DNA of 64,000 nucleotides from the NCBI GenBank assembly GCA_016875395.1, contig VGRF01000005.1, positions 62,001 through 126,000 on the forward strand, in the 5' to 3' direction. A model generated the notes under the pieces. It was not told the origin of the DNA. It saw nothing but the letters and a program-made list of their open reading frames with translations, and did no database searches. Below are positions 29,893 through 34,362 of this stretch, piece by piece (position 1 is the stretch's first letter; each line of letters starts with the position of its first letter). The DNA is from Deltaproteobacteria bacterium. GTDB lineage: Bacteria; Myxococcota_A; UBA9160; UBA6930. A program made the translations under genes and the position numbers.

Positions 29893-31158
29893 GTGCGTCT
29901 CTCCCTCGTCCACAAGTTTGCGCTCGGTTCGGTAGCCGCTGCGGGCTCGGCGCTGATCGTGCCTCCGCTCGCGGCTTCCGTGGGTTTGCCTGCGAGCCCG
30001 GTGCTCGTGCACTCGCTCGCGGTCGTGATCGGCGCGGGCGTGGGCGTCGCGTTCGCGCGGCGCTTGTTGGGCGAACCGAGTGAGGCGGCGAAGCTGGCGA
30101 AGCGCGCAGTGCGCGGGGACTACGTGGCGCTCGACGCGATGCCGGCAGCGCCGCCGATCGAGGATGAAGCGCACGAGCTCGCGGTGGCGGCGGCGCAGCT
30201 CGGCGAGCGGCTGCGCGCGCTCTCCGGCCAGTCGCAGGCGCTGGCGGAGCGCATGCAGCGTTCGGTCGAGTCGTTCGCGCAGGGCGGCAAGCGCGCGGAC
30301 GCAAGTGCGCGCGAGATCGCCGAGACGGCGAACGGGCTCGCGAAGGGCAGCGCGAATCAAAAGCAGCTGCTCGCGGACGTGCAGCGGCTGTCGGCGGAGA
30401 TCGCGTCGGCGATCGAGGCGAACGCGTCGCGCGCGCGCGAGGCGTTCGGCTTCGCGGCCGAGGCGAATCAGAAGGCGAACGCGGGCGTAGACGTGTCGCG
30501 CCTCGCGATCGAGAAGATGCGCAGCGTGTTCGAGCGCATGGAGCACGCGGGCAAGCTGGTGTTCGATCTCGAAGCGAAGACGCGCCACGTGCACCAGATC
30601 ACGGAGCTGATCACGAGCGTCGCGTCGCGCACGAACTTGCTCTCGCTGAATGCGTCGATCGAAGCGGCGCGCGCGGGCGAGGCGGGTCGCGGTTTCGCGG
30701 TGGTCGCAGACGAGATTCGCAAGCTCGCCGAGAGCGCGCAGCGCAGCGGCGACGAGATCTCGAAGCTCGTGGGCGAGATCGAGAGCGGCACGCGCAGCGT
30801 CGCCGACGAGATGCGCCAATCGGGCCAGGTGATCGCCGAGGGCCGCGACGACGTGAACACGATCTTCCACTCGCTCGAGCAGATTCGCGCCGCCGTGGGC
30901 GAGGCCTCGACGCGTGCGGAGGAGATCTTCGAGCAGGCCGACGTGCAGGCGCAGGGCGCCGAGCGCATGGTCGCGGCGGTGAGCGAAGTCGCGGGCGTCT
31001 CGGGCGAGAACGTCGCGAGCGTCGACCTCGTCGCGGGCAGCGCGGAGCAGCAGCTCGAGACGATCGCGGAGCTGGTGGCGGGAGCGCACGAGCTGGCCGT
31101 CGTGGCGCGCGAGCTGGGTGAAGCGACCGTGCGTTCGCGCAGCGGAGCCGCGCGATGA
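29893..31158 (+). CDS. Methyl-accepting chemotaxis protein without a large sensor domain
   Basis: A 421-residue receptor. Two hydrophobic segments (about 8-30 and 36-56) are separated by only a few residues, so almost nothing is exposed to the periplasm. The cytoplasmic part is a long coiled coil with the conserved signalling tip [33 protein letters not shown] (shown in part: [19 protein letters not shown]) around residues 245-270. There is no C-terminal CheR-docking pentapeptide. It probably senses a membrane or cytoplasmic cue or relays signals from partners. GTG start at 29893. Its stop overlaps the cheW start (ATGA), beginning a tightly coupled operon. Confidence 0.9.
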
Positions 31159-31619
31159 GCGCCGCAGACGAGAGCCGCATGCTCGCGTTCGAGCTCGGCG
31201 GCGCGCTGTTCGCGCTACCGATTTCGGGCGTGGTGGAAGTCGCCGAGGCCGCGCGCATCGCGCCGGTGCCGATGCTGCCGCGCGGGAGCTTCGGCGTGGT
31301 GAATCACCACGGCGACGCGTTGCCCGTAGTGTTCGGCGGCGGGCTGCTCGAGTTCGCGGGCGCGAGCTCGCCCACGCGCTTGTTGGTGCTCGCGGGCGAC
31401 GCCGATGATCCGGATCGCTACGGGTTGCCCGTAGACCGCATCGTCGGTCTCGTGGCCGGTGAGGCGAAGATCGCGCGCGGCGAGAGCCCGGTGGCGGAGC
31501 GCCGCCAGCACGAAGGCCGCGTGATGAGCGTGATCGATCCGCGCAGGTTGCTCGCCTGCGCGCTCGCGAGGGTCGAAGAGTCGATGAGCGGCGCAAAGCC
31601 GCAGGGGGAGGCGCAATGA
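31155..31619 (+). CDS. cheW: Chemotaxis coupling protein CheW
   Basis: A 154-residue CheW-domain scaffold that links the receptor to CheA. The fold is seen in [21 protein letters not shown] (first 30 residues), the [11 protein letters not shown] strand, [12 protein letters not shown] and [11 protein letters not shown]. It overlaps both neighbours by 4 bases (ATGA at each end), so MCP, CheW and CheY are made from one coupled message. Confidence 0.88.
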
Positions 31620-31984
31620 AGAGGGTTCTCATCGCAGACGACGCATCGTTCATGCGTCAGATGATCCGCGACATCATCGAGCCGGAGGGCTACGAGGTCG
31701 TGGGCGAGGCGTCCGACGGCGTCGAAGTCGTCGACAAGTTCCGCAAGCTGCGGCCGGACCTCGTGATGATGGACATCGTGATGCCCAAGCGATCGGGCAT
31801 CGACGCCGTGCGCACGATCCGCTCCGAGGACGCGACCGCCACGATCGTGATGTGCAGCGCGCTCGGTCAGGAGACGCTCGTGATGGAGGCGATCCAGGCC
31901 GGCGCCAAGGACTTCATCGTGAAGCCCTTCAAGCCCGACGCCGTGATCGCGACGCTCGCGAAGGTGGTGGAGAAGGCCGCGTAG
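31616..31984 (+). CDS. cheY: Chemotaxis response regulator CheY
   Basis: A 122-residue single-domain receiver. The acidic pair D8-D9, phosphoacceptor D53 (VMMDIVMPK), S81 and K103 (IVKPFKP) are all in place, so it should be a working phosphoryl acceptor for CheA. No output domain is attached; it acts on a motor or other target by direct binding. A 157-base spacer containing a dispersed repeat separates it from cheA. Confidence 0.93.
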   Translation: MKRVLIADDASFMRQMIRDIIEPEGYEVVGEASDGVEVVDKFRKLRPDLVMMDIVMPKRSGIDAVRTIRSEDATATIVMCSALGQETLVMEAIQAGAKDFIVKPFKPDAVIATLAKVVEKAA

Positions 31985-32100
31985 CGGCGCCACGCGCACG
32001 TGCTCAACCCTCCCCTCCTCCTTCCTGGAACCTCCGTGCCCTTCAGCGCCTCGCGGGTCGTCGTGAGCGGCAAGCCGCCGAGTACCGCGCAAGCGGTGTA

Positions 32101-32135
32101 GGCGGCGCGCAGCGAGGCCAGCCGAGCGGAGCTCG
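32101..32135. repeat. Dispersed intergenic motif GCGCGCAGCGAGGCC..GCCGAGCGGAGC
   Basis: GCGCGCAGCGAGGC followed by CCGAGCGGAGC closely matches the stretch at 9464-9492, and its first part recurs at 51776. All three are in spacers. Such motifs are common in GC-rich genomes and their function is unknown. This copy lies just upstream of cheA. Confidence 0.4.
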
Positions 32136-32141
32136 GAAAAG

Positions 32142-32561
32142 ATGGATCTAGCCAAGTACCGCGCGCTCTTTCTCGAGGAAGCGACCGAGCACCTCGCGGA
32201 GCTTTCGCGCGCGCTGCTCGCGCTCGAGAAGAACGCCGCCGACGCGGAAGCCATCGACGCAGCGTTCCGCATGGCGCACTCGATCAAGGGCATGGCGGCG
32301 TCGCTCGACTATCAGGGTCCGACCGAGCTCGCACACAAGCTCGAGGACCTGCTCGCCGCGCAGCGCGCGGCCGGCGCCGTCGACGCGCGGGCGAGCGCGC
32401 TCTTGTTCCGCGCGCTCGAGGGCCTCGAGCGCATGGTGGCAGCGCTGCGCGCGACGGGGGAGCCGCCCGCCGCCGATCCTGCGCTGATCGCCGAGTTATC
32501 AGGGACGGCGACCGAGCCGAACGAGTCGCCGCCAAAAAAATCGTCAGCGCGGCGCCCGTAG
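32142..32561 (+). CDS. cheA: CheA N-terminal (P1/Hpt) reading frame; zero-frame product of a frameshifting cheA
   Basis: The zero frame gives 139 residues: a histidine phosphotransfer domain with the phosphorylated His46 in MAHSIKGMAA, then a Pro/Ala linker ending ESPPKKSSARRP. The kinase, dimerisation and CheW-binding parts follow in the -1 frame. The switch point is a run of seven A (32534-32540) read as CCA-AAA-AAA, the phase required for tandem -1 slippage. A -1 shift there gives a continuous 544-residue CheA (bases 32142-33775). Without a shift, translation stops at TAG 32559-32561 and yields P1 alone. The ATG follows GGAAAAG. Confidence 0.8.
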   Translation: MDLAKYRALFLEEATEHLAELSRALLALEKNAADAEAIDAAFRMAHSIKGMAASLDYQGPTELAHKLEDLLAAQRAAGAVDARASALLFRALEGLERMVAALRATGEPPAADPALIAELSGTATEPNESPPKKSSARRP

Positions 32562-32576
32562 CCGAGGCCGCCGCGC
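32534..32576 (+). promoter_or_regulatory. Candidate -1 programmed frameshift site in cheA
   Basis: The slippery heptamer A-AAA-AAA (32534-32540) is in zero-frame phase. Six bases later, GCGCGGCG (32547-32554) can pair perfectly with CGCCGCGC (32569-32576), an 8-bp GC stem with a 14-base loop that contains the zero-frame TAG. Slippery site, spacer of 6 and downstream stem match the classical bacterial -1 signal of the dnaX type. No other run of seven A was noticed in this GC-rich window. Confidence 0.6.
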
Positions 32577-33775
32577 CGCCCGAGAGGCCGCCAACGCAAG
32601 CACAAGTCGCGGTGCCGTCCGGCGCGCAGCCGCCGACCCTGCGAGTGCGCGTCGAGATGCTCGATCGCTTCATCTCCTCGGTCGGCGAGGTCGTGCTGTC
32701 GTCGAGCCAGCTGCGCGGCATGGCGCAGCGCGAGCGCGGCGCGTCCGCGGAGCTCGCGGCGGGGCTCGATCGCATGGACCGCGTGGTCGCGGACCTGCAG
32801 CGCCGCGCGCTCGGCATGCGCACCGCGCCGCTCCAGCGCGTGGTCGAGCCGTTGCCGCGCACGGCGCGCGAGCTCGCGCGCGAGCTGGGCAAGCAGGTCG
32901 AGGTGGAGATTCGCGGCGCGGAGCTCGAGCTCGATCGCTCGATTCTCGACCGCCTCGGCGATCCGCTCGTTCACCTCGTCCGCAACGCCGTCGATCACGG
33001 CCTCGAGTCGCCGAGCGCGCGCACGCAGGCGGGCAAACCGCCCGCGGGCCGCATCGTGATCGAGGCGCGCCGCGAACGCGATCACGTGCGCATCGCGGTC
33101 TCCGACGACGGCAAGGGCATCGACCTCGAGCGCGTGAAGCGCCGCGCCGTCGAGGCGGGGCTCTTGCACGCGGACCTCGCCGACGACCTCCCGCCCGACG
33201 AGATCGCGGCGCTCGTGTTCCGCCCCGGGCTCTCGACCGCGCAGGAAGTCTCGAAGATCTCCGGCCGCGGCGTCGGCATGGACGCGGTGAAGGCGACCAT
33301 CGAGGCGCTCGGCGGCGGCGTCGAGCTCGCCTCGCAGCCCGGCCTCGGCACCACGACGTTGCTGCTGGTGCCGGTGACCGCGGCCGTGCAGCGCATGTTG
33401 TTGTTAGTGGTCGCGGGCGAGATCGTGGGTCTACCGATCTCGAAGGTGGAGCGCGTCGTCGAGCTCGACACCGCTAGCATCGAAGATGCTGGCCGCGAGC
33501 GCTTCGCGATCGTCGACGACGCGCCGATGCTCGTGATCGATCTCGCCGAGCGCCTCGGCCTCGGCGAGCGCCGCCGCGCTGGGGTCGCGCCGCTCGTGAT
33601 CGTCGACGTGCGCGAGCAGCAGATCGGCCTCGTCGTGGAGCGCCTCCACGGTCAGCAGGAGATCTACGTGAAGCCGCTGCCGCGCCTGCTCGCGCGCGCA
33701 CGCGGGCTCGCGGGGCTCACGGTGCTCTCGGACGGTGCGCCCGTGTTCCTGCTCGATCTCGGGCCGCTCGCATGA
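32540..33775 (+). CDS. cheA: CheA kinase core (P3-P4-P5), read in the -1 frame after slippage
   Basis: The -1 frame opens directly at the A-run and continues for 411 residues: a short linker, the P3 dimerisation helices (VEMLDRFISSVGEVVLSSSQL), the P4 HATPase with N-box HLVRNAVDHGLE, G1 DDGKGID and G2 ISGRGVGMDAV, and a P5 CheW-like domain ending FLLDLGPLA. P2 (CheY-binding) is absent. A GTG at 32612 could start a separate protein but has no ribosome binding site, which favours frameshifting over reinitiation. It overlaps cheC by 4 bases. Alternatively a one-base deletion in the A-run broke the gene, or the run is a sequencing error. Confidence 0.8.
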   Translation: MVSAAPVAEAAAPPERPPTQAQVAVPSGAQPPTLRVRVEMLDRFISSVGEVVLSSSQLRGMAQRERGASAELAAGLDRMDRVVADLQRRALGMRTAPLQRVVEPLPRTARELARELGKQVEVEIRGAELELDRSILDRLGDPLVHLVRNAVDHGLESPSARTQAGKPPAGRIVIEARRERDHVRIAVSDDGKGIDLERVKRRAVEAGLLHADLADDLPPDEIAALVFRPGLSTAQEVSKISGRGVGMDAVKATIEALGGGVELASQPGLGTTTLLLVPVTAAVQRMLLLVVAGEIVGLPISKVERVVELDTASIEDAGRERFAIVDDAPMLVIDLAERLGLGERRRAGVAPLVIVDVREQQIGLVVERLHGQQEIYVKPLPRLLARARGLAGLTVLSDGAPVFLLDLGPLA

Positions 33776-34362
33776 CGCAGCTCGCAAATCACGACGCAGC
33801 GAGCGCGCGCCGCATCGACCGGCTGTGCGAGCTCACGAGCATCGGCGCGGGCCACGCAGCGGGCGCGTTCGCCGCGCTGCTCGGGCGCGCGTGGGAGATG
33901 CGCGTGCCGCGCGCGCGCGTGCTCGAGGCAGGCGAGCTGGACGCGCCGCTCGCGCAGCTCGGCGGGGCCGACGCCTCGGAGTGCAGCGGCGTGATTTTCG
34001 AAGTGCAGGGCGGACTCGGCGGCGTGCTCGGGTTGTTATGGCCGCCAGCGAGCCGCGACGCGCTGCTCAATGCGCTCCTCGGCGAGAACGCGAGCATCGA
34101 GGCGCAGGCGCAGTCGGCGCTCCAGGAGGTCGCGAACATCGCAGCCTCGCACTTCGCGACCGCGCTCGGGCAGATGCTCGGCGAGAGCGTGCTCATCTCG
34201 GTGCCGCAGCTCGAGACGTCGGGCGCGCCCGCGGCCTTCATCGCTCAGGTGGCTGCGAACGCCAGCCAGCGCCCGGTGCTGCGGATCGAGATCGCGCTGC
34301 GTGATCGCGCGACCGGGCACGAAGTGCTGCTCGCGTACGCGCCCAGCGAGCTCGGCGCCTAG
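33772..34362 (+). CDS. cheC: CheC/CheX-family CheY-phosphate phosphatase
   Basis: A 196-residue protein of the CheC class, which dephosphorylates CheY-P. CheC carries two active sites of the form ExxN. The first helix here reads ELTSIGAGHAAGAFAALLGR, with Ser where Asn is expected. The second, LQEVANIAASHFATALGQML, keeps E and N. It therefore probably works with one site. Its ATG overlaps the cheA stop. No cheR, cheB or cheD is nearby, so signal termination here rests on this phosphatase rather than on receptor methylation. Confidence 0.78.
   Translation: MTQLANHDAASARRIDRLCELTSIGAGHAAGAFAALLGRAWEMRVPRARVLEAGELDAPLAQLGGADASECSGVIFEVQGGLGGVLGLLWPPASRDALLNALLGENASIEAQAQSALQEVANIAASHFATALGQMLGESVLISVPQLETSGAPAAFIAQVAANASQRPVLRIEIALRDRATGHEVLLAYAPSELGA

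Follow-up and report, generated by a model that had tools for sequence, protein, structure and literature searches.

The cheA locus

The DNA analysed here (the window) is a stretch of 64,000 nt from a bacterium that belongs to an uncultured class within the Myxococcota; the source genome is a draft assembly of 96 contigs. It carries cheA on the forward strand at positions 32142–33775, as part of an operon (29893–34362) that contains genes for an MCP, CheW, CheY, CheA and a CheC/CheX-like protein and that in relatives is located between lon-thiL and larB-larC. No CheR or CheB gene was detected among the genes checked beside the operon. The features of the locus are as follows.

29893–31158, + strand: MCP, upstream gene of the cheA operon
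31155–31619, + strand: CheW, upstream gene of the cheA operon
31616–31984, + strand: CheY, upstream gene of the cheA operon
32142–32561, + strand: zero-frame ORF, P1/Hpt domain, 139 aa, stop TAG at 32559–32561 (Pfam Hpt, E = 2.3e-16)
32277–32279, + strand: CAC codon of the phosphorylatable His46, within MAHSIKG
32534–32540, + strand: putative slip site A_AAA_AAA, zero frame CCA AAA AAA
32540–33775, + strand: −1 frame past the slip site, coding for linker, P3, P4 and P5; stop TGA at 33773–33775; full product 544 aa
32547–32576, + strand: hairpin 6 nt past the slip site; 32547–32554 pairs with 32569–32576, with the zero-frame TAG in the loop
32612–32614, + strand: GTG, the only possible independent kinase start upstream of P3
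33772–34362, + strand: CheC/CheX-like phosphatase gene, whose ATG overlaps the CheA stop (ATGA)

The kinase part is in the −1 frame relative to the P1 part (a distance of 470 nt, which is 2 modulo 3), and its H-kinase_dim, HATPase_c and CheW domains all lie in that frame. The CheA domain set (P1 with the phospho-histidine, P3, the P4 ATPase and the CheW-like P5) is complete only when both frames are combined; no P2 domain was found in the window CheA. The conceptual 544-aa product aligns over its full length with the naturally fused CheA of relative L098 (61% identity). Since the cheC start codon overlaps the CheA stop, cheC is probably fed by shifted ribosomes; an overlap of cheA stop and cheC start of the ATGA, GTGA or TTGA type is present in most relatives.

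At the junction, the zero frame reads CCG CCA AAA AAA TCG TCA GCG CGG CGC CCG TAG. The A7 tract is the single A7 or T7 run in the window (0.22 expected from shuffles), and 24 overlapping A7 hits, or about 20 runs, are found in the whole 4.5-Mb genome. Inspection of 18 stretches with the other A7 runs revealed no second frame junction. Locus L180 was considered as a further frameshift gene and rejected, its run lying at the start of a MoxR-type ATPase gene that adjoins another gene.

An earlier note, made from the letters of the sequence alone, had described the −1 offset between the P1 frame and the P3-P4-P5 frame, an A7 run, the only one it noticed, read as CCA-AAA-AAA, an 8-bp stem with the zero-frame TAG in its loop, and a GTG at 32612 without a ribosome binding site. 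The offset is confirmed by ORFs, domains and the 470-nt distance, the uniqueness of the run by count and the stem by an exact match, and no clear ribosome binding site can be seen by eye in front of the GTG. The statement that the −1 frame is open from the A-run on has to be corrected: the kinase frame is open already from 32102, GTG 32612 being the first start codon in it. The shift point is therefore not pinned by stop codons in the window alone.

Conservation of the frame offset among relatives

We searched the family, order and class of the window; 91 genomes yielded 71 orthologues, 66 of which (one per species, in separately assembled genomes) had a readable junction. The earlier note had held that conservation of the run, its phase and the offset in relatives would support programming, and all three are kept in 52 of the 66. 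In each of these 52 orthologues with a −1 offset, an in-phase A_AAA_AAA is present inside a run of 7 to 10 A (A7 in 22, A8 in 9, A9 in 4 and A10 in 17). The 11 nearest loci of the genome collection, with kinases 55–71% identical to that of the window, have their genes in the order Lon-ThiL-MCP-CheW-CheY-CheA-CheC-LarB-LarC, within the limits of their contigs, and the ten of them that contain the junction all show the −1 offset, with 7 to 10 A in the run. Three orthologues (A7, A7 and A10), which belong to one supported clade, have a +1/−2 offset at the A-run. The remaining 11 cheA genes are fused; ten of them lack any A-run, the eleventh being L135. Outside the class, P1 and kinase are in the same frame in all 67 CheA loci with a detectable P1. 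On the kinase tree, the frame state requires at least eight changes, and we conclude that the offset layout is ancient within the class, with several losses or alterations since. Since 11 species have a fused gene, the device can be lost and is not essential.

Two of the deviating arrangements deserve description. In the clade of L125, L131 and L149 (genomes G032, G031 and G046; A7, A7 and A10), a +1 or −2 shift would be needed, and a very strong hairpin is located 4–8 nt past the run in each gene. Possible explanations are a −2 slip, after which both tRNA-Lys would again pair with AAA, or polymerase slippage. L135 (G042) shows the inverse arrangement: the zero frame encodes the full CheA and an A10 run is retained, so that after a −1 slip on this run translation would end at a TGA a few codons on, leaving P1 as the only domain of the product.

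L104 (G000:C15:73185-74336) and its counterparts in the family encode a further CheA, with about 40% identity, in one frame of 500–830 aa; these species thus have an ordinary CheA too.

Signs of selection at the junction

The linker around the site is variable (the P1 product is about 127–177 aa long, and the distance from run to P3 is 34–239 nt), while the run and the offset are constant. The site is AAA AAA preceded by CCA (25 genes) or GCA (15 genes) in 40 of 55 genes; elsewhere in these genes, AAA accounts for 15% of Lys codons, CCA for 5% of Pro codons and GCA for 8% of Ala codons. None of the ten runless fused linkers contains Lys-Lys, which indicates that the pair is dispensable for the CheA protein. 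In L091 and L092, the last stop of the −1 frame and the zero-frame stop are just 16 nt apart, with the A-run in the middle, and the stops confine the shift to this interval. The phosphorylatable histidine (HSI/VK motif) is kept in all complete P1 domains, as HSVK in three and as HSIK in the others; one P1 cut by a contig end was left out of this check. No conserved Shine-Dalgarno-like element was seen upstream of the junctions by eye, without scoring.

Among 50 genes of the order, 35 have TAG as the zero-frame stop of P1, and the stop is most often located 9 nt past the run. The true CheA ends are TGA in 49 and TAG in 5 of 55 genes. The preference for TAG at the P1 stop could be due to shared descent or to release-factor choice.

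Structure downstream of the A-run

In the minimum-energy fold of the window site, the 8-bp stem is lengthened to 12 pairs (−25 kcal/mol). Compared with dinucleotide shuffles, the hairpin has a z score of only −1.0 to −1.4, so the stem alone is unremarkable in GC-rich DNA. For the genes of the order, the folding of 45 nt beginning 2 nt past the run was compared with each gene's own average. All 31 genes with A7–A8 were more strongly structured past the run than on average (mean z −2.1), and there was no extra structure past the run in genes with A9–A10 (mean z +0.2). The same comparison against dinucleotide shuffles gave mean z scores of −1.9 and −0.8, respectively. When run length and hairpin were related through independent contrasts, 3.5 of 7 were concordant and none discordant (p about 0.125); with the shuffle-based measure, independent contrasts revealed no link. 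The coupling of run length with the hairpin is merely suggestive, because the contrasts are too few, the result falls short of significance and the shuffle-based measure does not reproduce it. The stems of relatives sit in the unalignable linker and differ in sequence. A downstream stem, to which the earlier note had also looked, finds support as a feature of A7–A8 genes, where the trend is strong by species though not significant on independent contrasts; in genes with 9–10 A a stem is mostly absent.

A model for expression of the split gene

We interpret the split in cheA, the gene of a chemotaxis kinase, as a programmed frameshift that has been conserved, with a probability of roughly 0.77 in our estimate and in the absence of expression data. 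According to the model, ribosomes would translate P1 and then arrive at A_AAA_AAA. Those staying in frame would terminate at the TAG close by, yielding a free P1/Hpt domain of 139 aa. A fraction, stalled by the downstream hairpin with two tRNA-Lys on AAA AAA, would slip back by one base, make the full CheA of 544 aa (P1-P3-P4-P5, without P2) and then enter the overlapping cheC. A single mRNA may in this way give two products, the phospho-acceptor domain and the receptor-bound kinase, in a set ratio that is itself inferred. It is likely, though the products are unmeasured, that the phospho-acceptor domain is in surplus over the kinase and that cheC follows shifted ribosomes only. That free P1 has a function, such as that of a phosphodonor in trans, is an inference; liberated P1 can signal in E. 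coli (Garzon and Parkinson 1996, as cited in PMC10653900). Where relatives have 9–10 A without a hairpin, the slip, by the ribosome or by RNA polymerase, would be expected to result from the length of the run.

Ribosome or RNA polymerase

Since the window has A7 plus a hairpin, ribosomal −1 frameshifting is favoured there, the slip itself and its agent being inferred. In E. coli cassettes, A_AAA_AAA with 7 A gave 10% shift, and runs of 9 A and 11 A gave 40% and 63% (PMC3711429). The genome encodes both tRNA-Lys(UUU) and tRNA-Lys(CUU). Atkins et al. tie strong slipping on AAG to a sole tRNA-Lys (PMC5009743), and we infer that the presence of two tRNA-Lys may be the reason why the site is A_AAA_AAA and never the dnaX-type A_AAA_AAG.

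Both products would also arise if RNA polymerase added or dropped A's at the run and the mixed mRNAs were translated normally. Such transcriptional slippage is rather improbable in our judgement and stays a live alternative, above all for the long runs. In at least 20 relatives the run has 9–10 A, a length at which bacterial polymerases are known to slip, and a hairpin is mostly absent; a precedent exists in dnaX of T. thermophilus (PMC5009743). Both directions of shift are present (52 genes at −1 and three at +1/−2); Antonov et al. regard constant direction as pointing to the ribosome and mixed direction as pointing to polymerase slippage (PMC3711429). Within the family of the window, however, the direction is constant. 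Slippage sites are usually of 8 or longer (same source); the window, with only 7 A, falls short of this length, which 30 of the 52 relatives (A8–A10) reach. A downstream hairpin cannot affect a polymerase that has yet to transcribe it, and slippage has no need for the A_AAA_AAA phase seen in 52 of 52 genes, though descent and changes by 3 nt could keep the phase. For A10 runs without a hairpin, the choice between ribosome and RNA polymerase is undecided, and the reversed clade is a hint of polymerase slippage or of a −2 shift.

Other explanations of the split gene

The offset could also stem from an error in sequencing or assembly, from decay of the gene, or from replication slippage that causes phase variation; A-runs are prone to all three, and the genome is a draft of 96 contigs. 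We consider this hardly tenable: the same offset recurs in 52 species with A7, A8, A9 or A10 always in the matching phase, and both gene parts are full length and conserved. Under phase variation, many run-bearing genes should be found "on", and only L135 of 56 is. Raw reads of the window aside, the 66-species census excludes error, decay and phase variation as general explanations. It is also very improbable that an independent Hpt gene is followed here by a separate gene for a CheA without P1, read from GTG 32612, in the manner of CheA3/CheA4. A start codon does lie just upstream of P3, but it lacks a clear ribosome binding site, its position is not conserved among relatives, and two separate genes would give no reason for A-run and phase to be conserved. 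Moreover, the kinase frame contains no ATG, GTG or TTG upstream of P3 in 22 of 53 relatives, so that the kinase cannot start alone in these 22 genes; the internal start is refuted for them and rejected as the general mechanism.

A more serious possibility, to which we give less than even credence, is that the shift only lowers the dose of full CheA and of the coupled CheC, free P1 being a by-product without a role. This would agree with the variable tail past the slip site, with fused relatives that live without the device, and with the overlap of cheC with the CheA stop, which would make cheC follow shifted ribosomes. A weaker start site would suffice for this purpose, however, and L135 has the inverted layout, yet a −1 slip on its A10 would still release P1. 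We regard it as an even bet that the class sets the ratio of free P1 to complete kinase by recoding, with lineages switching among solutions: a short A-run with a hairpin (ribosome), a long A-run without a hairpin (RNA polymerase or long-run slipping), the reversed +1/−2 shift, the inverted form (full CheA in the zero frame, A10) and plain fusion.

Relation to known systems and significance

Few bacterial chromosomal genes outside mobile elements are subject to conserved recoding (dnaX, prfB, copA, chlD), and we found no description of it for a signalling kinase. The short form of E. coli CheA originates from an internal start and is without the phosphorylation site, whereas the extra product of the cheA studied here would be P1 itself. 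Rhodobacter sphaeroides has a split CheA3/CheA4 pair. In these cases and in that of liberated P1, there is more than one CheA product or P1 can signal when detached from the kinase, and none of them is known to involve a frame shift. In copA/CopZ, the shift reportedly releases the domain, whereas cheA needs the shift for the full protein. As proposed for cheA, E. coli copA/CopZ yields a full protein and a free N-terminal domain as its partner protein (Meydan et al. 2017, cited in PMC12589874), from a slip site that differs from that of cheA. E. coli dnaX is similar in its Lys-Lys slip heptamer with a downstream stem and its two products in a ratio; it differs in that the full product is made in the zero frame and the shift leads to the short one, and in that the heptamer is A_AAA_AAG rather than A_AAA_AAA (PMC5009743). 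The two-ORF dnaX of Chlorobi and relatives (Antonov et al. 2013, PMC3711429) likewise has two overlapping ORFs and a −1 shift at 7–10 A, with a short product from the zero frame and a long one after the shift, as inferred for cheA. It codes for a DNA polymerase subunit instead of a signalling kinase, and its authors argue for transcriptional slippage, whereas A7–A8 cheA genes have hairpins.

The earlier note knew of no CheA made by frameshifting, and our literature search, which did not extend to the supplementary tables of Antonov 2013, likewise found no paper linking CheA or chemotaxis with programmed frameshifting. Neither chemotaxis nor histidine kinases are mentioned in the main text of the large survey of prokaryotic frameshifts (PMC3711429) or in the covered part of the 2016 review (PMC5009743). 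Mechanisms of this class are known; what appears to be new is the use of one for a signalling kinase and its conservation across a bacterial class. If the interpretation is true, free P1, known mainly as a laboratory tool, would be made naturally by the cell and at a fixed dose, and dozens of functional cheA genes have probably been annotated by pipelines as split or as pseudogenes. With A7 and a hairpin, A10 without one, both directions of shift, the inverted layout and reversions to fusion, the 66 species would then be a natural experiment on the replacement of ribosomal and polymerase slipping by one another.
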